In this document: one piece after another, positions 28,483 through 56,691 of the stretch
Numbering within the stretch: position 1 is the first letter of the stretch
Layout of the letters: each line of letters begins with the position of its first letter
Origin: Paracoccus chinensis
GTDB lineage: Bacteria; Pseudomonadota; Alphaproteobacteria; Rhodobacterales; Rhodobacteraceae
DNA: 64,000 nucleotides
Direction: 5' to 3'
NCBI RefSeq assembly: GCF_900102885.1
Contig: NZ_FNGE01000003.1
Location: 62,001 to 126,000 of the forward strand
The notes under the pieces: generated by a model
Seen by the model: only the letters and a program-made list of their open reading frames with translations
Databases searched by the model: none
What the model was told of the DNA's origin: nothing
Program-made: the position numbers and the translations under genes

Positions 28483-29139
28483 TCACGATCCCGAGGCCGG
28501 ACGGCAAGGCCCCTCGCAGGCGCCGAGCGCTTCCACGAACTCCAGCACCTGCGGGCCGATGGCCTGCACGACCAGTTGAACCCCGCGGGCATTGGGATGA
28601 ATGCCGTCGGGCTGCATGAGCGACAGGGGATCGCGCGCTGCTGCGATGGCACCCAGCATCGAGGGGATCACGGGAATGTCATAGGCGGCGCCAAGCTCGG
28701 GGTAGATGGCGTTGAAGGCCGTTCGATATTCGCCCCCATAGTTCGGCGGTGCCTCGAGCCCGACCAGCAGCGCCGGAACTTGGGCCTTTCGGGCGGCGCC
28801 CAGGATGCCCGAAAGGTTCGCACGCGTCACCTCGGGGTCGATGCCGCGCAGCAGGTCGTTCCCGCCCAAGGCCACGATCAGCCCGTCCACCTCGGGCGCC
28901 AGCGTCCAGTCCACGCGGCTGAGCCCGCCCGCCGAGGTGTCGCCCGATACCCCCGCGTTGATCAGCGTCACCTCGGCCCCGCTTTCGCGCAGCCATGCCT
29001 GCAGTTGGGGGACCAGCCCCTCATCTTGGGGCAGGCCATAGCCCTGTGTCAGGCTGTCGCCCAGCGCGGCCACGGTGACGGGCTGGGCAAAGGCGGGCAG
29101 GGCGGTCAACAGCAGCGCGGCGAGACTTCTGGCGAACAT
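28483..29139 (-). CDS. Periplasmic SGNH/GDSL esterase, TesA-like
   Basis: 218 residues with a signal peptide ending at FAQPV. The GDSL serine is S29 (LGDSLTQGYG). The oxyanion Gly lies in NAGVSGDTSAGG, the Asn in GGNDLLRG, and the catalytic Asp/His in DGIHPN. TesA-type enzymes hydrolyse acyl-thioesters, lysophospholipids or aryl esters. I start at ATG 29139, which has AGAGGA six bases before it. Divergent to an ABC ATPase/FtsX permease pair, exactly as E. coli tesA is beside ybbA-ybbP. Confidence 0.9.
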   Translation of the reverse strand: MFARSLAALLLTALPAFAQPVTVAALGDSLTQGYGLPQDEGLVPQLQAWLRESGAEVTLINAGVSGDTSAGGLSRVDWTLAPEVDGLIVALGGNDLLRGIDPEVTRANLSGILGAARKAQVPALLVGLEAPPNYGGEYRTAFNAIYPELGAAYDIPVIPSMLGAIAAARDPLSLMQPDGIHPNARGVQLVVQAIGPQVLEFVEALGACEGPCRPASGS

Positions 29140-41922: not shown

Positions 41923-42792
41923 TCAGGCCGCCCGCAGTCCGAGGATCTGCCGCGCCTGCTGCCAGGTGGCGACGGGACGCTCGTGGCGTTCGCACAGTTC
42001 CACCACCCGCCGCACCAGCGCCGCGTTGGACGGGGCAAGGGTGTCGCGGTCCAGGCGGACGTTGTCCTCCATCCCCGTCCTGGTGTGGCCGCCCTTGGCG
42101 ACGGCCCATTCGTTGATCCGCAACTGCTCGGTCCCAATTCCGGCCGCGCACCATTGCGCATCGGGCGCCAGGCGCTTCAGCGTTTCAATGTAGAAGTCGA
42201 AGATCGGCTCGTCGGCGGGCATGGCATTCTTCACCCCCATGACGAACTGCACGTAAAGCGGCCCCCTGAGCCGCCCGTCCCGCGCCATCCGCGCGGCCTG
42301 CACGATATGGGACAGGTCAAAGGCCTCGATCTCTGGCTTGACGTCGTGAACCTTCATTTCCGAGGCGAGCCAGTCCACCAGGTCCGGCGGGTTCTCGTAG
42401 ACGCGGGTCGGGAAGTTGTTGGACCCCACCGACAGCGAAGCCATGTCGGGCCGCAGCGGCAGCATTCCCCCGCGTGCGCGCCCCGCGCCCGAGCGGCCTC
42501 CAGTCGAAAGCTGGATGATCAGGCCGGGGCAGTGCTTCTCCAGCCCTTCCTTCAGCGCCGCGAAGCGGTCGGGGTCCGAGGTGGGCTGGCCCTGGTCGTC
42601 GCGGACATGGCAGTGGACGATGGTGGCGCCGGCCTCGAAGGCCTCCTGTGTCGATTCGATCTGTTCCGCGACCGTGATCGGGACGGCGGGGTTGTTGTCC
42701 TTGGTGGGCAGGCTGCCAGTAATCGCCACGCAGATGATGCAGGGGGTATCGGCAGGATTGGTCGTCTGGGTCATGCTTTCCATTTCCGTCAT
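41923..42792 (-). CDS. BKACE-family beta-keto acid cleavage enzyme (DUF849)
   Basis: 289 residues, TIM-barrel zinc enzyme family that condenses a beta-keto acid with acetyl-CoA to give acetoacetate and a new CoA thioester. Seen: CVAITGSLPTKDNNPAVP at the start, the zinc motif TIVHCHVRDDQGQPTSD, LSTGGRSG and GHTRTGMEDNVRLDRD. ATG 42792 overlaps the benE stop by 4 bp; ATG 42774 is an alternative. Substrate is not readable from sequence. Being in an aromatic-degradation island next to benE, a beta-ketoadipate-type substrate is possible (inference). Confidence 0.88.
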   Translation of the reverse strand: MTEMESMTQTTNPADTPCIICVAITGSLPTKDNNPAVPITVAEQIESTQEAFEAGATIVHCHVRDDQGQPTSDPDRFAALKEGLEKHCPGLIIQLSTGGRSGAGRARGGMLPLRPDMASLSVGSNNFPTRVYENPPDLVDWLASEMKVHDVKPEIEAFDLSHIVQAARMARDGRLRGPLYVQFVMGVKNAMPADEPIFDFYIETLKRLAPDAQWCAAGIGTEQLRINEWAVAKGGHTRTGMEDNVRLDRDTLAPSNAALVRRVVELCERHERPVATWQQARQILGLRAA

Positions 42793-44039
42793 GAGATGCG
42801 TGATGATGCGGGGGACCGTTTCAGCCGCGCGGCCAGCGCCGAAAGCGCCACTGCCGCCATTCCCACGGCGACGCCCCAGAAGGCCGCGCCGATTCCCAGC
42901 AGCGACACGCCCGAGGTCGTGACCATGAAGGCCAGCAGTCCCGCCTGCCGGTCCGAGGGGGTGGTGCCCTCGGGCGACAGGGTGTCGCCGAGGCTTTTCG
43001 CGATCGCCCCCAGCAGCGCGAGGCCCGCCAGCAGCGCGATCACCGCGACCGGCAGTAGGGTCAGCAGCTGGACGATGGTGCCCGCCAGCAGCCCGCCGAC
43101 GCAGAAGAACAGCCCGCAGGCCACGCCCGCCGCGTATCGCCGCGAGGCGTCAGGATGGGCATCGGGTGCCGCGCAAAGCGCCAGCGTGATCGAGGCCAGC
43201 GCCGTCGTGATCCCCCCGAACAGCGCCGAGGGCAGGGACGCCAGCGCGCAGATCACCACAATGGGCCGCGCCGCCACCTGGTAGCCATTGGCCCGCAGGA
43301 TCGCCATGCCGGGCAGGAACTGCCCCGTCAGCGTGGTCAGGATCAGAGGCAGCGCCAGCCCCGCGAGTGCCTGAACCGAGAAGGTGGGCCAGGTCAGGAC
43401 AGGATGGGCAAGCGACAGGCGGATCTCACCCATCGGGACGCCCTCGACCAGCCAGGCGAGCAGCAGCCCCACCGCCAGCATGATGACCACGGCATAGCGC
43501 GGCAGCAGCACGGTGAAGACCAGGTAGGCCGTGACCAGCACCGCGAAGATCACCGGCGCGCTGCCGATGGCGCCCATGGCCGTCAGCCCGAAGCCGAACA
43601 GGATGCCCGCCATCATGCCGCTGGCGACAGGCTTCGGGATTGCCGCGACCAGCCGGTCAAACAGGCCCGTGATCCCCAGCGCAAGGATCACCAGCGCCGA
43701 CACGAGGAAGGCGCCCACGACATCGGAAAAGGGCAGGTCCGACCCGATCGAGATCAGCAGTACCGTACCCGGCGCCGACCAGGCGGTGACGATGGGCGCG
43801 CGGGTCAGCAGGCTCAGCCCGATGCTGGTCACGCCGGCTGCAATCGAGATCGCCATCACCCAGGAAGAGAACCCGGCGTCGCTTGCCCCCATCGCGCGGG
43901 CGGCCTGAAGATAGATCAGCAGCGGCCCGGCATAGGAGACCAGCACCGACAGGAACCCCGCCGTGACGGTCGAAGGCGACATGGCCGCCGCAGCCTCGCG
44001 CCAGGCGGGCAGGGCGGTTCGTTCGCCGGCCACGGCCAT
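42789..44039 (-). CDS. benE: BenE-family benzoate/H+ symporter
   Basis: 416 residues, about 11-12 membrane helices. BenE marks are MSPSTVTAGFLSVLVSYAGP, FSSWVMAISIAAGV, TAWSAPGTVLL and GMMAGILFGFGL. It likely imports benzoate with a proton. The start at ATG 44039 (MAVAGERTALPAW) precedes the conserved region by about 20 residues; the longer upstream frame enters the intergenic region shared with catA. Overlaps the BKACE gene by 4 bp. Confidence 0.9.
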   Translation of the reverse strand: MAVAGERTALPAWREAAAAMSPSTVTAGFLSVLVSYAGPLLIYLQAARAMGASDAGFSSWVMAISIAAGVTSIGLSLLTRAPIVTAWSAPGTVLLISIGSDLPFSDVVGAFLVSALVILALGITGLFDRLVAAIPKPVASGMMAGILFGFGLTAMGAIGSAPVIFAVLVTAYLVFTVLLPRYAVVIMLAVGLLLAWLVEGVPMGEIRLSLAHPVLTWPTFSVQALAGLALPLILTTLTGQFLPGMAILRANGYQVAARPIVVICALASLPSALFGGITTALASITLALCAAPDAHPDASRRYAAGVACGLFFCVGGLLAGTIVQLLTLLPVAVIALLAGLALLGAIAKSLGDTLSPEGTTPSDRQAGLLAFMVTTSGVSLLGIGAAFWGVAVGMAAVALSALAARLKRSPASSRIS

Positions 44040-44178
44040 CGGCTCAGTGCCCCGCCGGGGCGACAAGCGCCCGTGCCTGCAATCCTGCCCGCAATTCCGT
44101 TCCTCCCGCTTGCCCGCAAGGCGCGCAACAGGGCCCGAGACTGGTCCGCCCCCCGCCGCCGCGGCAATGACGCGGGAA

Positions 44179-44205
44179 GTATCCCCCGATACCCGGCGCG
44201 GCATT
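44179..44205. promoter_or_regulatory. Candidate LysR (CatR/BenM-like) operator between benE and catA
   Basis: A perfect dyad GTATC-N4-GATAC (44179-44192) runs into GATACCCGGCGCGGCATT (44188-44205). The latter recurs with one change upstream of catB. Inside it ATACC-N6-GGCAT is a near-dyad like the ATAC-N7-GTAT sites of BenM/CatM. It lies 97 bp before catA and 140 bp before benE, in the 262-bp divergent gap. Confidence 0.6.
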
Positions 44206-44301
44206 GGTGCGGACGGGCTTCATCGGGAATATGGCGGCATGCGGGGGAGGAGAGTGCCACCCGTTTCATTCCGGCCAACCGGACAGGAGGAGGACGCAGC
44301 T

Positions 44302-45174
44302 ATGCGCGACGTGACAATCGACAACGTGACCGACGTGGTGATCGCCTCGCTGGGCGACAAGGCGCCCATCGGCGACCGCCAGCGCGAGGTCATGACCAGC
44401 CTGATCAAACACCTGCACGGGTTCTGCAAGGACGTGAGCCTGACGCATGGCGAGTTCCTGTATGCCTGCGACTACCTGGCCCGCGCGGGCCGGATCTGCG
44501 ATGACAAGCGCCAGGAGTTCATCCTGCTCGGCGACATCCTTGGCGTCGAGGTGCTGGTGGACATGCTGACCCACCCGGTCGAGGGCAACGAAAGCGTCTC
44601 GACGGTGCTGGGCCCGTTCTACCGCGAGAACCCGCCGGTCCTGCCCAAGGGCGCCTCGATCATCCAGAAGCACTTCCCCAACGAGGAAACCGTCTGGTTC
44701 GAGGGTTACGTGCGCGACGCCCAGGGCAAGGGGATCGAGGGCGTGACCCTGGACGTCTGGGAAGACGCGCCGAACGGCCTTTACGAAAACCACGACCCCG
44801 ACCAGCCCGACTACAACCTGCGCGGTCGCCTGGTCACGGACGCGGACGGCCATTTCGCCTTTGTCGCCGTCCGCCCGGTTCCCTATCCGATCCCCGATGA
44901 CGAGACCGCGGGCGAGCTGCTGCGCTTCATGGGCCACCATCCCTACCGGCCCGGCCACATCCACTTCATCCTGGCCAAGGACGGCTATCGCACCCTGGTC
45001 AGCCAGGTGTTCGATGCCGACAGCGACTGGCTGGACGACGACAGCGTCTTCGCCGTCAAGGACAGCCTGGTTGCCCGGTTCGAGCCTGCGAGTGACAGCC
45101 GGACCGACCTGAAGGTGCGCTTCGATTTCGTCATGAAGGCGCAGGCCGCCACCGCCCAGCTGGCGGCCGAATAA
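44302..45174 (+). CDS. catA: Intradiol ring-cleavage dioxygenase (catechol 1,2-dioxygenase, hydroxyquinol-like)
   Basis: 290 residues. Opens catechol between its hydroxyls to cis,cis-muconate. N-terminal dimerisation helices, then the catalytic domain with Fe(III) ligands Y161 (NGLYENHD), Y195 (RPVPYPIP), H219 and H221 (RPGHIHF). The RPVPYPIPDD segment looks more like hydroxyquinol dioxygenases than classic CatA, so substrate is not certain; catB and ben genes argue for catechol. AGGAGG precedes the ATG. Followed by lysR on the same strand. Confidence 0.85.
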   Translation: MRDVTIDNVTDVVIASLGDKAPIGDRQREVMTSLIKHLHGFCKDVSLTHGEFLYACDYLARAGRICDDKRQEFILLGDILGVEVLVDMLTHPVEGNESVSTVLGPFYRENPPVLPKGASIIQKHFPNEETVWFEGYVRDAQGKGIEGVTLDVWEDAPNGLYENHDPDQPDYNLRGRLVTDADGHFAFVAVRPVPYPIPDDETAGELLRFMGHHPYRPGHIHFILAKDGYRTLVSQVFDADSDWLDDDSVFAVKDSLVARFEPASDSRTDLKVRFDFVMKAQAATAQLAAE

Positions 45175-45218: not shown

Positions 45219-45265
45219 GCATTATGCGTTTCAGGGCCGCAGTCGGGGCTTACAGTGAGGACGCA

Positions 45266-46165
45266 TTGAACCTGCGGCAGCTCAGCTATTTCATCGCCGT
45301 GGCCGAGGAACTGCATTTCGGCCGCGCGGCCGAGCGGCTGGACATGGCCCAGCCGCCGCTGAGCCGCCAGATCAAGCAGCTCGAGGACGAGCTTGGCGCA
45401 GTCCTGTTCAACAGGGGCCGCAACGCGATCACGCTGACCCAGGCCGGGTCGAGGCTGCTGGAGCGCGGACGCGCCGTGCTGGCCGAGATCGAGGACATCA
45501 AGCTGGAACTGCGCCGGATCGGGCAGGGGGCCGAAGGGCGGCTGCGGATCGGCTTTGTCGGCTCATCGACCTTCGGGATCATGCCCAACATCATCAAGTC
45601 CTTCCGCGCGAACTATCCGGTGGTGAACCTGACGCTGCTGCCCATGAACAACGCGCGCCTGCACCGCGCCCTGATCTCGCGCGAGATCGACGTGGCCTTC
45701 ACCCGGCCTGCGCTGAAGGACAGCGACTTCGTGACCCGCAAGCTGCTGGAGGAGCCGCTGGTCCTGGCCGCGCCCGACACCTTCGAGACGGCGACGCGCG
45801 GCCAGGTCACGCTGGAAGAGCTGCGCAAGATCGAGCTGGAGATGATCCTTTACCCCGAGTTCCCGCGCCCCAGCTTCGCCGACTCGGTGATCGAGGCCTG
45901 CCGCGCGCAGGGGGTGGACATCCGCCGCCGCAGCTTCACCATGGACCTGCAGACGGCGCTGAGCCTTGTGGCGATCGGTGAGGGTGCGTGCATCGTCCCC
46001 GCCTCGGTCGGCTCGGCCCCGCGCAACGGCATCCGCTTCCTGCGCTTCTCGCCGCATCTGGCGAATACCGAACTGGCGCTGAACCACAGGATCGACGAAC
46101 AGGGCGTGCATCTGAAGAACTTCGTCCGCATCGCCCAGTCGGTCGCGCGCCGGACGCTGGGCTGA
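45266..46165 (+). CDS. LysR-family regulator of aromatic catabolism (CatR/BenM-like)
   Basis: 299 residues from TTG 45266: MNLRQLSYFIAVAEELHFGR, the usual start of CatR/BenM-type proteins. The helix-turn-helix is AAERLDMAQPPLSRQIKQLE. The effector domain contains GFVGSSTFGIMPNIIK. GTGAGG lies 6-11 bases before the TTG; an ATG at 45224 would add 14 atypical residues. Follows catA and converges on livF. Muconate or benzoate is the probable inducer; this is inference from family and context. Confidence 0.88.
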   Translation: MNLRQLSYFIAVAEELHFGRAAERLDMAQPPLSRQIKQLEDELGAVLFNRGRNAITLTQAGSRLLERGRAVLAEIEDIKLELRRIGQGAEGRLRIGFVGSSTFGIMPNIIKSFRANYPVVNLTLLPMNNARLHRALISREIDVAFTRPALKDSDFVTRKLLEEPLVLAAPDTFETATRGQVTLEELRKIELEMILYPEFPRPSFADSVIEACRAQGVDIRRRSFTMDLQTALSLVAIGEGACIVPASVGSAPRNGIRFLRFSPHLANTELALNHRIDEQGVHLKNFVRIAQSVARRTLG

Positions 46166-46258: not shown

Positions 46259-46960
46259 TCAGACCCCCAGCCAGCGGTGCTGCGCCTCGGCGTCGGCGCG
46301 GATCTCGTCGGGGGTGCCGGTCCAGACGACCTGCCCCTTGCTGACGATCACCACGTCGTCGGCCAAGCTGGTGGCGAAGCCGAAGTTCTGCTCCACCAGG
46401 ATCATCGACAGGCCCGTGCGCTTGAGGTCCATCAGCCGGTCGTGGATCAGCTTGACGATGATCGGCGCCAGACCCTCGGTCGGCTCGTCGAGGATCAGAA
46501 GCCGCGGGTTCATCAACAGCGCCCGCGCAATGGCGAGCATCTGCTGCTCGCCCCCCGACAGTTGCATCCCCCCGTTCGCCATCCGCTCGCCCAGACGCGG
46601 GAAGAGTTCCAGCACCCGCGCCATCGTCCAGCCGCCGGGGGGCGCGGGGAAGCGCTTGGCGGCAAGCTCGAGGTTCTCGCGCACGGTCAGCGAACGGAAG
46701 ATGTCGCGCGTCTCGGGCACATAGCCCAGCCCCATGCGAGCGATGTCATAAGGGCGCCCGCTTCCGATCGCGCGGCCCTCGAAGGTGATCTGCCCGGCCT
46801 TGGCAGGCAGCAGGCCCATCACCGTCTTCAGCGTGGTGGACTTGCCCGCGCCGTTGCGGCCCAGGATCGCCAGCACGCGGCCCGCCTGCGCGGTCACGGT
46901 CATGCCGTGCAGGACCTGGGTCTCGCCATAGCCCGAGTCGACTGCGTTCAGTTCAAGCAT
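46259..46960 (-). CDS. livF: Liv-type ABC transporter ATPase (LivF)
   Basis: 233 residues. Walker A GRNGAGKST, signature LSGGEQQMLAIARAL, Walker B LLILDEPTEGLAP and LVEQNFGFA, all of the LivF branch. Second ATPase of a HAAT importer embedded in the ben operon; overlaps livG by 8 bp. The substrate is likely an aromatic acid rather than leucine. Confidence 0.93.
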   Translation of the reverse strand: MLELNAVDSGYGETQVLHGMTVTAQAGRVLAILGRNGAGKSTTLKTVMGLLPAKAGQITFEGRAIGSGRPYDIARMGLGYVPETRDIFRSLTVRENLELAAKRFPAPPGGWTMARVLELFPRLGERMANGGMQLSGGEQQMLAIARALLMNPRLLILDEPTEGLAPIIVKLIHDRLMDLKRTGLSMILVEQNFGFATSLADDVVIVSKGQVVWTGTPDEIRADAEAQHRWLGV

Positions 46961-47696
46961 CTTCCCAGGCTCCCAGATAGATGTCCTTCAGCAGGCTGCT
47001 GCCGCGCGCCTCTTCGGGCGAGCCGTCGAAGACGACCTCGCCATAGTTCAGGACGGTGATGCTGTCGGCCACGGCGAAGGCCAGGTCCATGTCATGCTCG
47101 ATGATCAGCAGCGTCAGGTCGCGCGGCAGGTCGTTAAGCAGATCGTGGAAGCCCTTGGCCATCTCGGGGCCGACGCCCGAGGTCGGCTCGTCCATCAGCA
47201 GGACCAGCGGGCGGGTGGCCAACGCCACGCCGACCTCGAGCTGCCGCCGCACACCGTAGGACACGTCGCTGACGCGGGCGTGCAGATAGGGCATCAGCCG
47301 CACCTGTTCCGCCACTTCGCGCACCGTGTCCTGCACGTCGCGCCGCGTCAGGCTGTCGTAGCGGATGTTGTGCCAATGGCCATGCGTGACCGAGGCGGCA
47401 AGGCCGAGGTTCTCCTCGACCGTCAGGCCGTCGAACAACGTATTCTTCTGGTAGCTGCGCGACAGGCCCCGGCGGGCGCGGGCCTGGACGGACAGCGCGG
47501 TCACGTCCTCGCCCGCCAGGAACACCTGACCCTCGTCGGGGGTGATCTCACCCACCAACTGGTTGAACAGCGTGGTCTTGCCGGCGCCGTTCGGCCCCAG
47601 GATTACCCGCCGCTCGCCGCGTTCCAGCTTCAGCGAGACGTTCCGGGTGACGTGGATGGCCCCGAAGCTTTTCGACAGGTTGCGTGTTTCAAGCAT
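46953..47696 (-). CDS. livG: Liv-type ABC transporter ATPase (LivG)
   Basis: 247 residues. Walker A GPNGAGKTT, LivG-type TRRGLSRSYQ-like stretch (RARRGLSRSYQKNTLF), signature region VSYGVRRQLEVGVALA, which departs from canonical LSGGQ (SYGVR), and Walker B LLMDEPTSGVGP. The degenerate signature is a variation seen in some HAAT ATPases. Overlaps livM by 8 bp. Confidence 0.92.
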   Translation of the reverse strand: MLETRNLSKSFGAIHVTRNVSLKLERGERRVILGPNGAGKTTLFNQLVGEITPDEGQVFLAGEDVTALSVQARARRGLSRSYQKNTLFDGLTVEENLGLAASVTHGHWHNIRYDSLTRRDVQDTVREVAEQVRLMPYLHARVSDVSYGVRRQLEVGVALATRPLVLLMDEPTSGVGPEMAKGFHDLLNDLPRDLTLLIIEHDMDLAFAVADSITVLNYGEVVFDGSPEEARGSSLLKDIYLGAWEDA

Positions 47697-48708
47697 CTTC
47701 CAGCGCTCCTTGAGCGGCGAGGTCCTTGCGGACCTGGTGGGCGATGACGTCGCGGGCAGAACTGGGACGAGCGCGGGACAGGCGCTGTTCCAGCCAGCCG
47801 AAGATCCCGTTGGCGCGGCTCATGACGACGGCGATCAGGATTAGGCCCACGACAAGATGCCAGTAGTCCGTGTGGGCGCTGACCTCGTGCTTGAGCATGA
47901 CAAAGGCGATGGCGCCGATCACCGGGCCGATGATGGTGCCAAGCCCGCCGAGGATGACGACCACCAAGGCCTCGCCCGAGACGGTCCAGTTCAGAAGGCC
48001 GGGCGAGACGAACATGACGTGCTGCGCAGCCAGCGCACCGGCGGCGGCGGCGATCATGCCCGACAGGCCGAACATGTCCGCCTTGATGCGCCAGACGTTG
48101 ACGCCCAGCGCCCGCATCCGCTGCTCGTTGTGCATGATGCCCGTCAGCGTGCGCCCCAGCCCCGCCTGCAGGACATGGGTGGCGAACCAGTAGACGAGGC
48201 CCAGGACGAACAGGCAGGCGAAGGCGAAGGTGCGGGGATCGTTCAGGTCCAGCCCGATCAGGGACAGGTCGATCCGCGGCACGCCCGAGACGCCGTCGTC
48301 GCCGCCGAAGACCGGCTGCTCGAAGACCAGCGAATAACCCATCTGCCCGAAGGCCAGCGTCGCCATGATGAAATAGATGCCGTGGCTGCGGCCGCAGACG
48401 GCCCCGATCAGCCAGGAGGCCGCGCCGGTGATGGCGATGGCGCCCGCAAAGGCGGCCGAGGGCGCCAGCCCGACCTTGACCGTCAGCATGGCATAGGCAT
48501 AGGCCCCCGCCCCCATCAGCGCGCCGTGGCACAGCGACACCATGCCGCCGAAGCCCGCGACCATGTCCAGCGCGATCACCAGGATGGCCAGGATGGCGAT
48601 CTCGGCCACCATCTCGACCCCGAAATATTCGGCCGTCAGCGCCCGCAGCACGGCAGCGGCGGCGATCAGGCCCAGCGCCCAGAAGCGCAGGCTCGTGTGT
48701 CGGAACAT
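47689..48708 (-). CDS. livM: Liv-type ABC permease (LivM)
   Basis: 339 residues with eight or more helices. Marks: NLxMxMVAGFGGMVSLCHGA-like region (LDMVAGFGGMVSLCHGALMG), GRTLTGIMHNEQRMRALGVN and GGLGTIIGPVIGA, typical of LivM. A C-terminal extension after the last helix (residues ~310-339) is hydrophilic. Begins four nt after livH ends. Confidence 0.93.
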   Translation of the reverse strand: MFRHTSLRFWALGLIAAAAVLRALTAEYFGVEMVAEIAILAILVIALDMVAGFGGMVSLCHGALMGAGAYAYAMLTVKVGLAPSAAFAGAIAITGAASWLIGAVCGRSHGIYFIMATLAFGQMGYSLVFEQPVFGGDDGVSGVPRIDLSLIGLDLNDPRTFAFACLFVLGLVYWFATHVLQAGLGRTLTGIMHNEQRMRALGVNVWRIKADMFGLSGMIAAAAGALAAQHVMFVSPGLLNWTVSGEALVVVILGGLGTIIGPVIGAIAFVMLKHEVSAHTDYWHLVVGLILIAVVMSRANGIFGWLEQRLSRARPSSARDVIAHQVRKDLAAQGALEDA

Positions 48709-48712
48709 CGGT

Positions 48713-49582
48713 TCAGCCCTTTGCCGGGAACAGGCCCGCCGGGCGCAGGATCAGCACCGCGGCCAGAAGCCCGTAGATGAGGATCGAGGCGAACTGCGGG
48801 AACAGCACCGCGCCGAAGGTCTGCACGACCCCATAGATCAGCGACCCCGCGATCGCGCCCTTGAGCGAGCCGAGGCCCCCGATCACGATGACGATCAGCG
48901 TCGGGATCAGGATCTGCAGCCCCATGTCGGGCGTGACCGACAGCAGGGGTGCGGCGACCGCGCCCGCCAGCCCCGCCAGCGCGCAGCCCACGCAGAAGAC
49001 GAGGAAGAACATCTTTTCCACGTCGATGCCCATGCAGGCGGCCATCGAGTCGTTGTCCACGCCCGCGCGGATCATCGCGCCGATCTGGGTGCGGCCCAGG
49101 ACCAGCGCCAGCACGCCCCAGATGGCCAGCCCCAGCGCGATCACGAACAGCCGGTAGGCCGGGTATTCGACGCCGAGGATCGTCAGCCGCCCGTCCAGCA
49201 GCGCCGGGACGGGGGCCGACAGCGCCTGCGCGCCCCAGACGATGCGGGTCAGGTCCAGCATGACGAAGATCAGGCCGAAGGTGACCAGCACCTGCGCCAT
49301 CGGCCCCGCCCGCCGCATCCGGCGGATGAAGACCAGATACAGCACCACCCCCAGCGCGGCGACCGCGAAGGGCGCGACCAGAAGCCCGCCCCAGAAGCCG
49401 ATGGCCGCGCCCGCGGTGGCCGCCGCATAGGCGCCCAGCGCGTAAAGCGAGCCATGCGCCAGGTTGACGAAATGCATCAGCCCGAAAATCACCGTCAGGC
49501 CGACCGACAGCAGAAACAGCAGCATGGACAGCTGAAGCGCGTTCAGCCCCTGCAGCACCCAGAAGCCGAGATCGGCCTGCAT
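48713..49582 (-). CDS. livH: Liv-type ABC permease (LivH)
   Basis: 289 residues. Marks: GLNALQLSMLLFLLSVGLTV at the start, IFGLMHFVNLAHGSLYALGA, RAGVDNDSMAACMGI and GGLGSLKGAIAGSLI. ATG 49582 follows GGGGAGGAAAG. Separated from livK by a hairpin with T-run that should lower its expression relative to the binding protein. Confidence 0.93.
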   Translation of the reverse strand: MQADLGFWVLQGLNALQLSMLLFLLSVGLTVIFGLMHFVNLAHGSLYALGAYAAATAGAAIGFWGGLLVAPFAVAALGVVLYLVFIRRMRRAGPMAQVLVTFGLIFVMLDLTRIVWGAQALSAPVPALLDGRLTILGVEYPAYRLFVIALGLAIWGVLALVLGRTQIGAMIRAGVDNDSMAACMGIDVEKMFFLVFCVGCALAGLAGAVAAPLLSVTPDMGLQILIPTLIVIVIGGLGSLKGAIAGSLIYGVVQTFGAVLFPQFASILIYGLLAAVLILRPAGLFPAKG

Positions 49583-49600
49583 GGCGCTTTCCTCCCCTAA

Positions 49601-49640
49601 AAGCGAAAAGGCCCCGCCGGAGCATCTGCTCAGGCGGGGC
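49601..49640 (-). terminator. Intra-operon terminator/attenuator between livK and livH
   Basis: On the minus strand GCCCCGCC (49640-49633) pairs with GGCGGGGC (49618-49611), followed by CTTTTCGCTTTT. A partial terminator after a binding-protein gene is a common way to make more binding protein than permease. Confidence 0.75.
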
Positions 49641-49646
49641 ACGGGA

Positions 49647-50825
49647 TCAGTTGATCAGGGCCATCTCGCAGCCGTTGACCGGGTCGGCCTCGGCCGGCAG
49701 CTGGGACAGGACCTTCTGGGTCTGCGCGCCGCCCTCGCCCGCGACGATCTGGTAGACATAGATCGGCTGGACGATGTTGTTGGTGGCCGGGTCGATGGCG
49801 GTCGCGCCGCGCGGCCCGTCGAAGCTGGTCTTCTGCAGCGCCGCGCCAAGGGTTTCCCGGTCGGTCGCGCCGGACTTGACGGCCTCGACCAGCGCGCGGG
49901 CGGCGTCATAGCCGTGGACCGCGTATTCCGACGGCAGGTGGCCGGCCTTGACCTTGAAGGCCTCGACGAACTGCCTGTTGGCCTCGTTGTCGATGGTGGG
50001 CACGTAATGCAGCGCCGTCACCACGCCCTCGGCCGCACGCCCCTGCGCGTCCACGTAAAGCTGCGAGGTCAGGAAGCCCGCGCCGTACAGCGGCAGCGCG
50101 TCCTTCATCCCGAAGCTGTCGTATTGCTTGACGAAGGAAATCGCCTCGCCGCCCGCGTAGAAGGCATAGACCGCCTGCGCGCCGCTGGATTTCGCTTTGG
50201 CGAGGAACGGGCCGAAGTCCTGCGTCTTCTGGAAGGGCGTGAACTCCTGCCCCACGATCTCGCCGCCCGCCGCCTTGAAGGCCTCGGCGAAGGCGCCGAT
50301 CATCTGCTGGCCCGCGGCATAATCGGCACCGATGGTGAACACCTTGGTGATGCCCTGGTCCACCAGGTACTTGCCCATCGGCCGGTTCACCTGCTGGTTC
50401 GAGAAGGACATGCGCGTGATCCAGGGGCTGCAGGCCTCGCCCGTGGCCTCGTCGTTGCCGGCGTTGGCGACGATCAGCGGCACCTTGGCGCCGTCCACCA
50501 CGTCGCGGATCGCGCCGAGCACGCCCGAGCTGACGACGCCGGCCATCACGTCCACCTTGTCCTGCATGACCAACTTGCGGGTCTTGGCCAGGCCCACCGG
50601 CGGGCTCGCCTCGCTGTCCTCGCGGACGATCTCGAAGCTGGCGCCGCTGCCTTCGCCGAAGGTGTCGAGGCCCAGGCGGAAGCCCGTCTCGATCTCCTCC
50701 CCAAGCGCCGCATAGACGCCCGAGAAGGGCAGCAGCAGGCCGACCTTGATGTCCTCGGCCTGCGCCTGCGCGACGGCAGAGCTTGCGATGACGGCCGCGA
50801 CGGCGGCCTTGACGAAGTTCGACAT
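49647..50825 (-). CDS. livK: Liv-type periplasmic binding protein, probably for an aromatic acid
   Basis: 392 residues; signal peptide MSNFVKAAVAAVIASSAVAQ cleaved near AQAED. Type I periplasmic fold of the HAAT family: IKVGLLLPFSGVYAALGEE, GAIRDVVDGAKVPLIVANA and the ADYAAGQQMI hinge. First gene of livKHMGF, 43 bp after benD, with GGGAGGA before the ATG. Its place in the benzoate operon suggests benzoate or a related aromatic as ligand (inference); liv symbols denote family, not substrate. Confidence 0.9.
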   Translation of the reverse strand: MSNFVKAAVAAVIASSAVAQAQAEDIKVGLLLPFSGVYAALGEEIETGFRLGLDTFGEGSGASFEIVREDSEASPPVGLAKTRKLVMQDKVDVMAGVVSSGVLGAIRDVVDGAKVPLIVANAGNDEATGEACSPWITRMSFSNQQVNRPMGKYLVDQGITKVFTIGADYAAGQQMIGAFAEAFKAAGGEIVGQEFTPFQKTQDFGPFLAKAKSSGAQAVYAFYAGGEAISFVKQYDSFGMKDALPLYGAGFLTSQLYVDAQGRAAEGVVTALHYVPTIDNEANRQFVEAFKVKAGHLPSEYAVHGYDAARALVEAVKSGATDRETLGAALQKTSFDGPRGATAIDPATNNIVQPIYVYQIVAGEGGAQTQKVLSQLPAEADPVNGCEMALIN

Positions 50826-50868: not shown

Positions 50869-51663
50869 TCAGCCTAGGTCGCCGCCCCCCACGGGCAGGG
50901 TGACGCCGGTGATGTAGCTGGCGTCGTCCGAGGCCAGGAACAGGATCGCTCCCGCCTGTTCATCCAGCGTGCCGTAGCGCTTCATCAGGCTGGACTGGAC
51001 CGTCTGATCGACGATGGTCCGGTACCAGTCCTCGCGCTGCTCGGTTTCGGCATTGGGGTTGCGCGGCACGGGGCGCGGCGGCGCCTCGGTCCCGCCGGGA
51101 GCGGTGGCGACCACGCGGATGCCGCGTTCGGCCACTTCCCAGGCGAGGCTCGCCGTGATCGCGTTCACGCCGCCCTTGGCCGCGGCATAGGGCACGCGGT
51201 TCAGCCCGCGCGTGGCGATGGACGAGACGTTGACGATCACGCCGTGCCCTGCCTCCAGCATCGGCTCGATCGCAGCCCGGCAGCAGTAGAGCGTCGGGAA
51301 CAGCGACCGGCGCACCTCGGCGTCGATCTGCTGCGGCTCGTAGAACTCGTAGGGCTTGGCCCAGATCGTGCCGCCGACATTGTTGACCAGGATGTCGATG
51401 CGGCCCCAGCGGGCGACGGCATGGGCGATGGCCTCGCGGCAGCCCTCCCAGGTTTCAAGGTCCACCGAGACGGCTTCCGCCACCCCGCCTGCGGCGCGGA
51501 TGCGCTCGACCACCTCGTCGCGGTGGGGCGAGCGGTCCACGATCAGCACCTCGGCGCCCTCGGCGGCGGCGCGTTCGGCCACGCGCGCGCCGATGCCCTG
51601 GGCCGCGCCCGTCACGACCATGACCTTGCCGGCGAAGCGGCCGGGGAAATGGGTGGCGCTCAT
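50869..51663 (-). CDS. benD: Benzoate cis-diol dehydrogenase BenD
   Basis: 264-residue short-chain dehydrogenase. Oxidises and decarboxylates 1,6-dihydroxycyclohexa-2,4-diene-1-carboxylate to catechol with NAD+. TGAAQGIG is the cofactor loop, NNVGG the structural motif, catalytic Ser in VNVSSIATRG and Y-x3-K in PYAAAKGG. ATG overlaps benC by 4 bp. Confidence 0.93.
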   Translation of the reverse strand: MSATHFPGRFAGKVMVVTGAAQGIGARVAERAAAEGAEVLIVDRSPHRDEVVERIRAAGGVAEAVSVDLETWEGCREAIAHAVARWGRIDILVNNVGGTIWAKPYEFYEPQQIDAEVRRSLFPTLYCCRAAIEPMLEAGHGVIVNVSSIATRGLNRVPYAAAKGGVNAITASLAWEVAERGIRVVATAPGGTEAPPRPVPRNPNAETEQREDWYRTIVDQTVQSSLMKRYGTLDEQAGAILFLASDDASYITGVTLPVGGGDLG

Positions 51664-52685
51664 GCGGCGGCCTCGGCCGGGGCCTCGGTCGGGTTGAACT
51701 TCTCGTAATGGAAGCTGGCGGGGGTCACGCCCGCGTGGCTGAGGTGCTGGCGCACGGCCTCGACCATGGGGGGCGGGCCGCAGAGATAGACGTCCACGTC
51801 GCCGCCATTCAGGTCGCTGCCCGACAGGTGGTCGGTGACGAAGCCCTTGCGATCATGGGCGTCCTCCTCGGCGGCGAGGATGGTAATGACGTTCACTGTG
51901 CCGATGCGATCGGCCAGTGCCATGACCCGGTCCATCTCGACCAGGTCGGCGGCGCGGGTGACGGCGTAATACAGCGTGATCGGCTGGTCGGTGCCCTCGG
52001 CGGCCACCTGTTCCAGCATGGACAGGAAGGGCGCCATGCCTGTGCCGCCCGCCAGCCACAACTGCGGCCGCGTCACGGGGCGCAGGTAGAAGGCGCCCAT
52101 CGGCCCCGTGACCTCGACCCGCGCGCCGGGCTGGGCGGTGTTGGACAGCCAGCCGCTCATCAGCCCGCCGGGCAGGTTGCGGATGAGAAAGCTCGCCTCG
52201 GTCGCGCCGGGGGCCGAGCTGAAGGAATAACTGCGGTGGCGCCCCGAACCGGGCACGTCGATGTTGACATACTGGCCGGCCAGGAAGGGGATCGGCTTGT
52301 CGAGCTTCAGTTGCAGCCCGAACGAGGTTTCCGACAGCCGCTCGACCGCGATCACCTCGGCGCCGACCTTCTCGGCCCCCGTCTTGCAGACGGCGGAGGA
52401 GGCCGGGACCGACACCACGCAGTCGCTGCGGGGCATCATCTGGCAGGTCAGGACATAGCCTTCTGCCGCCTCGTCCTCGGTCATGGCCTCGTCGAGGTAG
52501 AATTCCAGCTCGTACTCGCCCTTCTCGGCGTGGCACTTGCAGGTGCCGCAGACGCCGTCGCGGCAGTCCATGGGAATGTTGATGCGCTGGCGGAAGGCGG
52601 CCTCGGTCACCTTCTCATCCTCGTCGCAGTCGATGATGCGGGTGACGCCGTCCTCGAAGTTCAGCGCGATGCGGTAGGTCGTCAT
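51660..52685 (-). CDS. benC: Benzoate 1,2-dioxygenase reductase BenC
   Basis: 341 residues. N-terminal plant-type [2Fe-2S] domain with C41, C46, C49 and C81, a FAD domain (GSGRHRSYSFSS) and an NAD domain (WLAGGTGMAPFLSML). Passes electrons from NADH to BenAB. GGAGG precedes the ATG. Separated from benB by 92 bp containing a strong hairpin. Confidence 0.95.
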   Translation of the reverse strand: MTTYRIALNFEDGVTRIIDCDEDEKVTEAAFRQRINIPMDCRDGVCGTCKCHAEKGEYELEFYLDEAMTEDEAAEGYVLTCQMMPRSDCVVSVPASSAVCKTGAEKVGAEVIAVERLSETSFGLQLKLDKPIPFLAGQYVNIDVPGSGRHRSYSFSSAPGATEASFLIRNLPGGLMSGWLSNTAQPGARVEVTGPMGAFYLRPVTRPQLWLAGGTGMAPFLSMLEQVAAEGTDQPITLYYAVTRAADLVEMDRVMALADRIGTVNVITILAAEEDAHDRKGFVTDHLSGSDLNGGDVDVYLCGPPPMVEAVRQHLSHAGVTPASFHYEKFNPTEAPAEAAA

Positions 52686-52743
52686 GGGTCAAGCCTCCTC
52701 CGTTCGCGGACGGGCTGGCCGTTCGCGTCCTGTGCGGTCAGCT

Positions 52744-52768
52744 CCGGCCGCCGCTCAGGGGCGGCCGG
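52744..52768. other. Intercistronic hairpin between benB and benC
   Basis: Perfect 9-bp stem CCGGCCGCC/GGCGGCCGG around a 7-nt loop, no T-run. It may stabilise the benAB part of the mRNA or act as a weak terminator. Confidence 0.5.
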
Positions 52769-52777
52769 CTGCGGCGG

Positions 52778-53305
52778 TCAGATGTGGTAGACGTCGATCA
52801 CGTGATGGATGCGGTCGTTCTTCAGCACGACCTTCTTGTCGCGGATCAGCGGCCGCGGTCCGGACAGGTCCAGGGTGTAATAGGACGTGCCCCAGTGCTG
52901 GTCCGTTTCGCCATAGCGGAACGAGAGCGTCAGCCAGTTGAACCGCAGCTTCAGCGAGTCCGAGGTGCGCTCGATGATCTCGATGTTGCTGAGGTTGTGG
53001 TTGGTGCGCGGCTCGGGAAGCGAGGTGGCCGAACTGCGGTCGGTCTTGATGCGGAAGACGCGGTCCTCGATCCCGGAGCGGTCGGGATAGTAGATCAGCG
53101 ACATCTCGTTCCGGGGGTCTTCGGTCAGGGTGTCGAAGTCATCCCAGGCCGGCATCCAGAACTGGCAGTCCGGGTGGTAGAAGGTCAGCCAGTCGTCCCA
53201 CTGGCGGTCATCCAGGGCGCGGGCTTCGGCGTGCAGGAAGGCCTGCACCTGGTCGAAGGTGATCGCACCGGCGGTGGTGGGGGTCATCTCGTTCATCGGC
53301 TTCAC
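52778..53305 (-). CDS. benB: Benzoate 1,2-dioxygenase beta subunit BenB
   Basis: 175 residues, the small non-catalytic subunit of the alpha3beta3 Rieske oxygenase. Family marks are [34 protein letters not shown] and [12 protein letters not shown] 53305 overlaps the benA stop by 4 bp; a second ATG three codons in is possible. Confidence 0.94.
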
Positions 53306-54693
53306 TCCGCGGCGAGGGGCTGTTGCGAGGCCAGCGCGGCGCGCTCATCCTGGATGGCGCGCGCCATCCGTTCCGCCCACTGGCTGTGCTGGATGACGAA
53401 AAGGCCCTCGTCCTCGGTGCGGGCGCCCGACAGGATCGGGTTCATGCCCAGGGCCCTGGCCTCGTCGTCGGGACCGGTGATCCATTGCTTGGCGCCGCGC
53501 GACAGGTCGTTCCACTGGGCGTGCGCCGCGCCGGCATAGCCGCGCTGGGTCGCCCGGAACTCCTCGGTGTCGTCGGGCGTCGCCATGCCCGAGGCGTTGA
53601 AGAAGTCCTCGTACTGGCGGATGCGGCGGGTGCGGGCCTCCTGCGGCTCGCCCTTGGGGGCGATGCAGTAGATCGTGACCTCGGTCTTGTCCACGCTGAT
53701 GGGCCGGAAGACCCGCAGTTGGCTGGAGAACTGGTCCATCAGGAACAGGTTGGGATAAAGGCACAGATTGCGCAGGTAGCCGACCATCCAGTCGGCCTTG
53801 GCCTTGCCGTATTTCGCCTCGAACTCGGCATGGCGGGCATAGACCGGCCGGTTGGTCGGGTCGGCCCAGGTCGTCCACAGCAGCAGGTGGCCGTTGTCGA
53901 AGCTGTAGAAGCCGCCCTTCTGCTTGGCCCATTTCGAGGCGTCGTTGGCCTTGATCTTGTCTTCCTTGCCGTCCGCCTGGCGGTGGCCGGTGGTGGCGAC
54001 ATAGTTCCAGTGGACGGCCGACACGTGGTAGCCATCGGCACCGTTTTCGGCCTGAAGCTTCCAGTTGCCGTCATAGGTATAGGTGGACGAGCCGCGCAGC
54101 ACCTCGAGCCCCTGGTCGGACTGATCGACCACCATGTCGATCATGTGGCGCGCCTCGCCCAGGTAGTCCTGCAGCGAGGAGACGTCCGGGTTCAGGCTGC
54201 CGAACAGGAAGCCGCGATAGTTCTCGAACCGCGCCACGCGGGTCAGATCGTGGCTGCCGTCGCAGTTGAACTGGTCGGGGTAGCCCGCGCCGTTCGGGTC
54301 CTTGACCTTCAGCAGCTTGCCCGTGTTCGAGAAGGTCCAGCCGTGGAAGGGGCAGGTGAAGGTCATCTGGTTGCGCCGCTTGAAGCGGCAGAGCATCGCG
54401 CCCCGGTGCGAGCAGGCGTTGACCAGCGCGTGCAGCTGGCCCTGCTTGTCGCGGGTGATGACGACAGGGGTACGGCCCATGAACAGGGTGAAGTAATCGC
54501 CGGGGTTCGGGATCTGGCTTTCATGGGCCATGTAGATCCAGTTGCCCTCGAAGATGTGCTTCATCTCGAGCTCGAACAGGTCCTCGTCGGTGAACATGTC
54601 CCGGCGGGCGCGGAAGACGCCGCGCTCGGGGTCGTCCTCGACGACGTTCTGCAGGCGGGCCTGCAGCTCGTTCAGGTCGGTGCTGGTGAACAT
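53302..54693 (-). CDS. benA: Benzoate 1,2-dioxygenase alpha subunit BenA
   Basis: 463 residues. Rieske cluster ligands C94, H96, C114 and H117 (CSHRGAMLC ... CPFHGW). Mononuclear iron site in [16 protein letters not shown] and the later Asp. Adds O2 to benzoate giving the cis-diol carboxylate. GGAGGAGAG precedes the ATG. 60 bp downstream of catB in the same operon. Confidence 0.95.
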
Positions 54694-54753: not shown

Positions 54754-55899
54754 TCAGCTTCCCGTGGGGGCCAGGGTGGCGCCGCGGTCGCGGCGGTAGA
54801 AACGGACCTTGTCGGGGTCCAGGGCCACGCCGATGCCCGGCCCCTGGGGCAGGTGCACGCAGAAATCGGCGTAGCGGATCGGTTCGGCCAGGATCTCGTC
54901 CTTGAGCAGCAGGGGCCCGAACAGCTCGGTCCCCCAGTGCAGCGTCTCGACGGTCGAGAACAGCTGCAGCGCGGCGGCGGTGGATACTCCCGCCTCCAGC
55001 ATGGTCCCGCCATAAAGGCCCAGGCCCGCGGCCTGCCCGATGGCGATCACCTCGGAGCCGCGGCGCAGGCCGCCCGACTGGCCGATCTTGACGGCGAAGA
55101 CATCGGCCGAGCGGTTGGCCGCGACCCGCATCGCGTCGATGGGGCCCTGCAGCACCTCGTCGGCCATGATCGACAGGCGAGAGGTGTCCGTCAGCGCCTT
55201 GAGATCGCGCAGGAACTCGGCCCGGACCGGCTGCTCGGCCAGCTCGACGCCGATCTCCTCCAGCATGGCGACGCCGCGGCGCGCGGTGGCCAGGTCCCAG
55301 GCCTGGTTCACGTCCACCCGGATGCTGGCCCGGTCGCCCACGGCCGCGCAGATCGCGCCCACATGGGCGATGTCGGACTTGAGGTCGCGCTTGCCGATCT
55401 TGAGCTTGAAGATGTTGTGGCGCCGCGCCTCGATCATCGCTTCCGCTTCGGCGATGTCGGTGGTCGAATTGCCGCTGGCCAGCGTCCAGGCGACCGGCAT
55501 TGCCGGGCGCACCGCACCGCCGAAGAGCTGCGCCACCGGCACGCCCAGGCGGCGGCCGAGGCCGTCCCAGAGCGCGATCTCGACGGCGCAGCGCGCGATG
55601 GGGTTGCCGCGCACGGTCCGCTCGATGATGCCGATGGCGCCGTTGATGTCGTTGCCGTCGTGGCCCATCAGGGCGGGCCCGATGTAATGGTCAATGGCCA
55701 GCTTGATGCTTTCGGCGCTTTCGCCGCCATAGCTGAGGCCGCCGATCGAGGTGCCCTCACCGATCCCTTCCGAGCCGTCGTCGAAGCGGACGCGAACCAG
55801 GACGACCGACTGTGCGGTCATGGTGGTCATCGACAGGACGTGGCCCCGGATCGTGGGGATATCCAGCAGCGTGGTTTCGATCAGGTCGATCCTTGGCAT
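54754..55899 (-). CDS. catB: Muconate cycloisomerase CatB
   Basis: 381 residues, enolase-superfamily. Turns cis,cis-muconate into muconolactone. Marks: LLDIPTIRGHVLSMTTM, AVEIALWDGLGRRLGVPV, FKLKIGKRD (catalytic Lys), RVDVNQAWD and IMADE (metal ligands), VFAVKIGQSGGL. Strong resemblance to pseudomonad CatB. ATG 55899 follows GAGG; ATG 55917 is an alternative. First gene of catB-benABCD-livKHMGF; catC is not in the window. Confidence 0.94.
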   Translation of the reverse strand: MPRIDLIETTLLDIPTIRGHVLSMTTMTAQSVVLVRVRFDDGSEGIGEGTSIGGLSYGGESAESIKLAIDHYIGPALMGHDGNDINGAIGIIERTVRGNPIARCAVEIALWDGLGRRLGVPVAQLFGGAVRPAMPVAWTLASGNSTTDIAEAEAMIEARRHNIFKLKIGKRDLKSDIAHVGAICAAVGDRASIRVDVNQAWDLATARRGVAMLEEIGVELAEQPVRAEFLRDLKALTDTSRLSIMADEVLQGPIDAMRVAANRSADVFAVKIGQSGGLRRGSEVIAIGQAAGLGLYGGTMLEAGVSTAAALQLFSTVETLHWGTELFGPLLLKDEILAEPIRYADFCVHLPQGPGIGVALDPDKVRFYRRDRGATLAPTGS

Positions 55900-55974
55900 G
55901 TCGGCACCTCGTGGCATGTGCTGCCACAGTCACGTCCGGGGCCGGTCCTGTCGATAACGCGCCCGGTCTTGCCT

Positions 55975-55992
55975 GATACCCTGCGCGGCATT
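55975..55992. promoter_or_regulatory. Second copy of the cat/ben operator motif
   Basis: GATACCCTGCGCGGCATT, 17 of 18 bases identical to 44188-44205. It lies 76 bp upstream of catB and 60 bp upstream of the divergent glutathione transferase. Best explained as the LysR binding site of the catB-ben-liv operon. Confidence 0.6.
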
Positions 55993-56052
55993 TTCCTTTC
56001 GCCCGGAAGGGCCGACAGCCGGAGTCGCGTCCGCACCTACAGGAGAGACAAG

Positions 56053-56691
56053 ATGCCAACGCTTCACTGGTCCCCGCGCTCGCCCTATGTCCGCAAGGTG
56101 ATGGTTGCGCTGCATGAAAAGGGGCTGGCCTCGCAGGTGACGGTCGTGCGGACCCATGCCGATCCCCTGATCCCGCACGACGGGCTGATGCAGGTGAACC
56201 CGCTGAGCAAGATCCCCACGCTGGAACGCGAGGGGCTGCCGCCGATCTGGGACAGCCGCGTGATCTGCGAATGGGCCGATCAGGAAGGCACCGAAGGCCC
56301 GCGCCTGTTTCCGGCGGATCCCGAGGCGCGGGTTCTCGCGTTGCGGGACGAGGCGACCGGCTCGGGGCTGATGGACATCGCCCTGCCGTGGCTGGTCGAG
56401 ACGCGGATGCGGCCCGAGGAGCAGCGCAGCCCGCAGCAGATCGACGCCTGGCGGCGCAAGGCGGGCAGCACGCTCGACTGGCTGGAGGAGAACATCGGTG
56501 CCATCGCCGCCCGCGACTTCGACATCGGCCATGTCGCCATCGGGGCTGCGCTCAGCTACCTCGATTTTCGCTTCGGCGCCGAGAACTGGCCCAAGGGCCG
56601 CCCCCAGCTGGCGGCCTGGCACACCAGTTTCCGCGCCCGTCCCTCGGTGCAGGCGACCGAGTTCCGGGACGACCCCCGTCCGGCGGGCTGA
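56053..56691 (+). CDS. Glutathione S-transferase family protein
   Basis: 212 residues. Thioredoxin-like N-domain: LHWSPRSPYVRKVMVALHEK (Ser/Pro at the active-site turn), cis-Pro in NPLSKIPTLE and glutathione-binding DSRVICEW. All-helical C-domain with the N-capping box DIGHVAIGAALSYLD. ATG follows AGGAGAGAC. Divergent from catB and sharing its regulatory gap, so it may be coinduced by aromatics; substrate unknown. Confidence 0.9.
   Translation: MPTLHWSPRSPYVRKVMVALHEKGLASQVTVVRTHADPLIPHDGLMQVNPLSKIPTLEREGLPPIWDSRVICEWADQEGTEGPRLFPADPEARVLALRDEATGSGLMDIALPWLVETRMRPEEQRSPQQIDAWRRKAGSTLDWLEENIGAIAARDFDIGHVAIGAALSYLDFRFGAENWPKGRPQLAAWHTSFRARPSVQATEFRDDPRPAG

Follow-up and report, generated by a model that had tools for sequence, protein, structure and literature searches.

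The window analyzed here, a 64,000-nucleotide stretch of the Paracoccus chinensis genome, contains the genes of a benzoate and catechol pathway together with a gene for a LysR-type regulator (Table 1). catB is the first gene of a catB-benABCD-liv run, in which benA, benC, and benD score above the cut-offs of TIGR03229, NF040810, and NF040811, respectively, while benB was assigned by PF00866. In the liv part, the substrate-binding protein matches PF13458, and the other four genes were assigned by eye and from the same order on the annotated plasmid p5SUD7. Because this transporter also follows lysR in 12 of 38 ortholog loci among the matches listed (see below), its substrate may be aromatic. 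The regulator belongs to the LysR family by both of its domains, with 80.5 bits for PF00126 and 122.2 bits for PF03466, both above cut-off.

Table 1. Features of the locus, with predicted regulatory elements; the last two rows give coordinates in ortholog locus L026.
Feature	Position	Strand	Basis or remark
BKACE, 3-oxoadipate:acetyl-CoA acetyltransferase family	41923..42792	-	NF053568 above cut-off
benE, benzoate transporter	42789..44039	-	TIGR00843 above cut-off
Predicted benE-direction -10, CAGTCT	44138..44143	-	spacer 18
Predicted benE-direction -35, TTGCCG	44162..44167	-	divergent-side operator comparison
Predicted benE-facing overlapping operator, GGGTATCGGGGGATACTTCCCGCGTCATTGC	44164..44194	-	20.1 bits, second in window
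Predicted catA operator, AAGTATCCCCCGATACCCGGCGCGGCATTGG	44177..44207	+	29.3 bits, top match in 64 kb
18-mer copy 1	44188..44205	+	promoter-proximal dyad, right part of catA operator
Predicted catA -35, TTGGTG	44204..44209	+	TTGG in 38/38 rows
Predicted catA -10, GAATAT	44227..44232	+	spacer 17
catA, intradiol catechol dioxygenase	44302..45174	+	PF00775, PF04444; below named NCBIfam subfamily cut-offs
LysR-type regulator	45266..46165	+	PF00126, PF03466; TTG start, an ATG at 45224
Branched-chain amino acid type ABC transporter (liv), five genes	46259..50825	-	after benD, same direction
benABCD	50869..54693	-	A 53302-54693, B 52778-53305, C 51660-52685, D 50869-51663
catB, muconate cycloisomerase	54754..55899	-	TIGR02534, 491.9 bits, above cut-off
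Predicted catB -10, GACTGT	55926..55931	-	offset pattern, window included
Predicted catB -35, TCGACA	55949..55954	-	catB promoter comparison
Predicted catB operator, GGGTATCAGGCAAGACCGGGCGCGTTATCGA	55951..55981	-	22.3 bits at 55964, best in 64 kb
Weak operator-like sequence facing GST gene, CGGTCTTGCCTGATACCCTGCGCGGCATTTT	55964..55994	+	8.0 bits only
18-mer copy 2	55975..55992	+	elsewhere at catB only 55975-55981 conserved
GST-family gene	56053..56691	+	PF13409; divergent from catB across operator
Alpha/beta hydrolase, L026	7570-8424	-	beside SCP2-fold gene in 35/35 loci, 77-94% identical to L026's
SCP2-fold gene, L026	8424-8813	-	

Two gaps between divergent genes separate these units, one between benE (ATG at about 44039) and catA (ATG at 44302) and one between catB (ATG at 55899) and the GST gene (ATG at 56053). 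An earlier note on this DNA had reported an 18-mer that recurs in both gaps, and the two copies, GATACCCGGCGCGGCATT and GATACCCTGCGCGGCATT, are indeed located there and differ at a single base. A pattern derived from the two 18-mers matched the window three times at up to three mismatches, against 0.19 matches expected from shuffles; the third match carried three mismatches, and the two copies otherwise stood alone in the window. As this pattern was built from both sites, a whole-genome scan is a fairer test than the window count. Scanning the 3.63 Mb of the genome (84 contigs) with GATACCCNGCGCGGCATT, we found no further site at up to one mismatch, in line with the earlier note, whose author had found no other copies, as well as three further sites at two mismatches and a total of 20 sites at up to three mismatches, versus 9 for the same pattern read backward.

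For comparison across species, we scanned for the LysR protein, which yielded at least 80 loci, and used 38 of the matches listed (L021-L057 and L074; 62-73% identity), which come from Rhodobacterales and, in some cases, Hyphomicrobiales. The more distant LysR proteins L058-L100 (except L074), at 28-42% identity, were left out of the footprints, and two rows were dropped, L049 with no catA in its locus and L037 with catB cut by the contig end. Some of these loci are near copies of one another (e.g., L035/L036/L038, L044/L046, and L050/L051), and p-values overstate significance because the loci are not independent. Among the matches listed, 35 of 38 loci have catA ahead of lysR and co-oriented with it; in L042 and L043, catA is found elsewhere in the locus, away from lysR, and in L049 no catA was seen.

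Upstream of catA, a single extended element, RGTATY-N4-RATACC-N6-GGCATTGG, was present in all 37 catA-bearing orthologs among the matches listed and in the window. Its right end reads (G)GCATTGG, with the TTGG located 66 to 131 bp upstream of the start codon, and across the 38 catA rows GTA, ATAC, and TTGG are invariant while other positions vary. Each row is the best match in 280 bp, so that this agreement is partly selected, but the rows do match at 13 to 15 of 15 letters. A 31-bp matrix that was trained on the 37 orthologs, with the window excluded, gave its top match in the window at catA and its second at an overlapping copy on the other strand that faces benE, and the two have a common GTATC-N4-GATAC core. 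Such a reverse operator on the divergent side exceeds 8 bits in 34 of the 38 catA rows. The two divergent operators are separate in most of these 34 rows; five rows (the window, L023, L035, L036, and L038) show an 18-bp overlap, with a single GTAT-N6-ATAC core common to both. The operator is also kept where lysR and catA are not neighbours, namely at both catA and catB in L042 and L043 and at catA, the only one of the two seen, in L165.

Upstream of catB, we found a related conserved element, RGTATY-N4-RAGACC...TATTGGAC, on the minus strand of the window. It was present in 29 of the 30 loci with enough sequence, including the window (28 of 29 orthologs), the core not being found in L034; the pattern was widened after L029 and L055 had been viewed, its first form matching 27 of 30 loci and its second 29 of 30. 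Read along the catB strand, the element consists of RGTATYRNNYRAGACC followed by about GTATTGGAC, 82 to 111 bp upstream of the start. An 18-bp catB matrix, trained without the window, had its best match in the window at this element. The next-best match to this matrix (17.3 bits), an operator-like palindrome on both strands at 28935-28952, lies within long open reading frames and probably reflects chance. On the other side of the catB gap, the sequence facing the GST gene reached only the low score listed in Table 1, and the -10 pattern at spacer 17, read by eye, was absent in the GST direction, so that control of the GST gene is a guess. Taken together, the element before catA and catB can be written as RGTATY-N4-RA(T/G)ACC-N5/6-(G)(C/T)AT-TGG.

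Each of the two operators terminates at a predicted -35 box, from which a -10-like hexamer is separated by a fixed distance. Taking TTGG as the start of the -35 box and xAnnnT as the hexamer (A at position 2, T at position 6), we observed this hexamer at spacer 17 in 29 of 38 catA promoters, the window included, against 1.4 expected; each of the other spacings between 6 and 29 gave it in four promoters at most. For catB, it occurred at either of two adjacent offsets in 28 of 29 promoters (18 and 12; 1.3 expected for each), and for the sites divergent from catA in 20 of 34, with a spacer of 17 or 18 (7 and 13; 1.3 expected for each). The window fits all three patterns, with TTGGTG-17-GAATAT at catA, TCGACA-17-GACTGT at catB, and TTGCCG-18-CAGTCT in the benE direction.

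The core of the element is rare in this genome and tracks the regulator across genomes. A scan of the 3.63 Mb with GTATYNNNNRAKACC gave three matches, and none in the backward control: one at catA, one at catB, and one inside an open reading frame (C58:32410) that by eye is thermonuclease-like. Among 394 genomes of the family, 20 encode the LysR protein at E 1e-90 or better, and a 29-bp catA operator with at most one mismatch was found in 18 of these 20 versus 2 of the 374 others (p = 6e-27, with shared ancestry ignored). Of the remaining two LysR-bearing genomes, G354 matches at two mismatches and G205 at 28.5 bits, and the two exceptions among the 374, G262 and G378, both carry catA and a LysR protein that is 49% identical; in G378 the close operator match precedes an SCP2-fold gene, not catA. 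With two mismatches allowed, some operator match is seen in 66 of the 394 genomes, as a raw count. Within the genus, LysR is encoded in 8 of 125 genomes, and the catA operator was seen in five (G000, the window genome, and G102, G080, G124, and G107). For G083 (LysR at 65-66% identity), there was no catA-type site of at least 9 bits in the surrounding 20 kb, and for G004 and G017 (57%) there was none in the stretches around LysR.

The best-described relatives for comparison are BenM and CatM of Acinetobacter baylyi, which, according to the available part of PMC6628147, bind ATAC-N7-GTAT dyads (T-N11-A) and, as related LysR proteins, control ben and cat genes; at benA, a TTGAAC taken as the -35 box directly follows Site 2. 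The window system shares LysR-protein ligand-domain motifs and ATAC/GTAT-type half-sites with them and, as at benA in that part of the article, an operator dyad directly before the -35 box, here predicted from sequence. It differs in that the window catA dyad, as in many orthologs, is ATAC-N8-GCAT (T-N12-A), one base wider; in showing no conservation of the outermost half-site, the upstream arm of the first dyad; and in having a single regulator, encoded downstream of catA. A number of ortholog catB sites, though not that of the window, read AGAC-N7-GTAT. The resemblance to BenM/CatM sites proposed in the earlier note accordingly holds for the half-site pair against the -35 box and the further half-site upstream, and fails for the spacing within the dyad. 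At the protein level, the ligand domain of the window LysR aligns to BenM over RIGFVGS--FG--P-II and LYP--P-P-F. Whether R160 of the BenM benzoate site faces a gap or a residue other than Arg depends on the alignment used, and Y293 lies outside the aligned region. Scores against the NCBIfam models for BenM (140.3 of 600) and CatM (128.2 of 580) are far below the cut-offs, and the top NCBIfam model, AlsR-type NF045775, is likewise far from its cut-off (226.9 bits of 430) and belongs to a different pathway. Given the LysR domains and the ligand-domain alignment but sub-cut-off scores, we describe the protein as one that would work like BenM/CatM rather than file it as one of them.

A near counterpart of the whole arrangement is found on plasmid p5SUD7 of Sulfitobacter sp. 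D7, where the order catA-lysR-liv-benDCBA-catB is as in the window and where catA has an operator of 34.8 bits, the divergent gene one of 15.1 bits, and catB a further one upstream; there, however, the divergent operon opens with a hypothetical protein and a hydrolase, whereas that of the window opens with benE. The D7 article names the factor BenM, by annotation, and its available part contains no operator description that we could find (PMC9873259). We found no described operator for this LysR in the open-access literature, although one may be in print elsewhere, and the available part of PMC12442348, on aromatics in Roseobacter, gave no catechol genes or regulators under cat terms. A plasmid of Xanthobacter dioxanivorans also carries a site, at 33.5 bits.

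From these sequence comparisons, we consider it very probable that the LysR-type regulator whose gene neighbours catA has an operator to which the shared motif belongs. The prediction of the earlier note, that this one protein controls both halves of the pathway, finds good comparative support in an operator before catA in 37 of 37 and before catB in 28 of 29 listed orthologs, in addition to the window, and in a core that is nearly unique in the genome and co-occurs with this LysR. Some observations count against the operator reading: the most conserved part is GTAT-N6-ATAC, the catA dyad has N8 and so departs from the T-N11-A rule, and the sites noted above are missing near LysR in G083, G004, and G017 and before catB in L034. 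It is conceivable, if improbable, that some other transcription factor reads GTATC-N4-GATAC at both promoters and that the LysR gene is a mere neighbour. While the compact palindrome, with its spacing other than T-N11-A, would suit such a factor, and L042, L043, and L165 encode, next to the first, another LysR at 37% identity, the co-occurrence of the operator with this particular LysR across the 394 family genomes, the catA-lysR pairing kept in 35 of 38 listed loci, and a layout that recalls BenM at benA, where the final dyad adjoins the -35 box (available part of PMC6628147), all argue for the neighbouring regulator.

The 18-mer itself fared less well than the shared control it had suggested. 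Comparison with the 38 ortholog loci indicates that it is not a conserved unit but a misregistered view of the longer element: the two copies stand in opposite register, one being the promoter-proximal dyad at catA and the other the promoter-distal dyad at catB. On the catB side, only 7 bp (55975-55981; GATACCC, or GGGTATC on the catB strand) fall within the conserved operator, and the other 11 bp lie upstream of it. We rejected the 18-mer as a recognition unit, since the strict dyad pattern stands before catB in the window alone and the other register is the conserved one there; a looser dyad pattern also matches L022 and L023, at other distances. The very high identity of the two 18-mers is thus partly luck over a true relation. 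One could go further and regard the 17/18 identity as chance on top of shared half-sites, in promoter sites that are related and evolved separately. We rate this as very improbable: the opposite register and an outer arm, TGCGCGGCATT, that is not conserved before catB in orthologs speak for it, yet chance leaves the conserved operators and the nearly unique core unexplained, and the idea concerns the extra identity alone and not the shared control. A reading of the element chiefly as a core promoter of one specific sigma factor, with no regulator, fits the TTGG and the -10-like hexamer at fixed spacing but is scarcely credible, as GTAT-N6-ATAC upstream of the -35 box is about equally conserved and the core occurs outside open reading frames only twice in this genome.

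If the element is the operator of the neighbouring LysR protein, a pair of LysR dimers would occupy the neighbouring GTAT, ATAC, and GCAT half-sites, and an inducer would shift the protein on the DNA, such that the shifted pair beside the -35 box would help RNA polymerase. The inducer would most likely be cis,cis-muconate, to which the pathway and the ligand-domain similarity point. The catA-lysR, benE-BKACE, and catB-benABCD-liv units, and perhaps the GST gene, would then be turned on together. The same conserved site at two promoters would tie both halves of the benzoate-to-catechol pathway to the neighbouring LysR-type switch and gives a defined predicted operator for the LysR regulator of many Rhodobacterales benzoate clusters. 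As a regulon, this is ordinary in kind; what makes it useful is the precision of the operator, together with the candidates for a missing step. Used as a tag when searching for pathway members, the operator leads to candidate genes for a CatC gap that is on record in the available part of PMC9873259.

The window genome (99.98% complete) has no match to CatC (PF02426), the muconolactone isomerase expected of a full catechol branch in the beta-ketoadipate pathway, despite carrying catA, catB, benABCD, and a PcaD. Of 27 LysR-bearing genomes tested, a set without G262 and G378, 24 likewise lack CatC and 3 have it. The available part of PMC9873259 reports that benzoate can be the only carbon source for growth of Sulfitobacter D7 and that no CatC was found there; beyond this article, the papers listed gave nothing relevant on an alternative muconolactone isomerase. 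In 35 of the 38 listed loci (all but L028, L045, and L074), a gene for a small protein of 123-138 residues is followed by an alpha/beta hydrolase gene. In the 34 loci that hold both the small-protein gene and catA, the former lies on the strand opposite to catA, and in 33 of these 34 there is a divergent operator above 8 bits. In Sulfitobacter D7, the small gene is B5M07_RS19070, annotated as "hypothetical protein" (NZ_CP020699.1).

The small protein forms a well-conserved family, with 27 invariant columns over 32 aligned sequences, and its L026 member has no Pfam or NCBIfam match. Its predicted fold is that of SCP2 (pLDDT 91.4): the best fold-search match was to 2cx7 (VIA Z 13.3, rmsd 2.7, 118 residues), the best Foldseek match was to UbiJ-SCP2 (E 7.8e-6), and a profile search of PDB sequences gave one weak SCP2-like match (E 1.6). 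This fold carries no information on function, and the absence of a CatC fold among the matches listed has no weight either way. Regarding the adjacent alpha/beta hydrolase, we rejected the idea that it is a missing PcaD, as it scores 72.2 of the required 255.85 and a PcaD above cut-off is present in 29 of 29 genomes.

The small protein is encoded in 25 of 29 genomes and is absent from G000 (the window genome), G004, G017, and G083. G083 has CatC, and G253 and G362 have both CatC and the small protein. In the other three genomes without the small protein, G000, G004, and G017, the cat cluster includes a GST; those of G004 and G017 are 64 and 71% identical to the window GST and are the closest to it among the 29 genomes searched. 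These closest relatives lie between catA and a catB-like gene in the two genus genomes (L167 and L168), and the G017 order, catA-GST-catB-like-pcaD-like-lysR, puts the GST where catC would be expected. GSTs with 43-46% identity to that of the window, encoded somewhere in four genomes that also have the small protein (G296, G342, G362, and G469), were not counted as stand-ins. On this basis, a stand-in is present in 4 of 4 genomes without the small protein versus 2 of 23 with it (27 genomes; p = 0.0009, from few and related genomes and with the GST chosen after viewing the data). We tentatively suggest, with rather less than even confidence, that the regulon does without CatC and that unrelated stand-ins act after muconolactone, an SCP2-fold protein (with the hydrolase) in most relatives and a GST in the window and two congeners. 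We offer the stand-in idea as a hypothesis from gene context; if true, it would explain the benzoate growth of Sulfitobacter D7 without CatC that the available part of PMC9873259 describes. The BKACE gene adjoins benE in the window and the hydrolase gene of the SCP2-fold operon in 16 of the 38 listed ortholog loci, and its enzyme may stand in for pcaIJ and pcaF.
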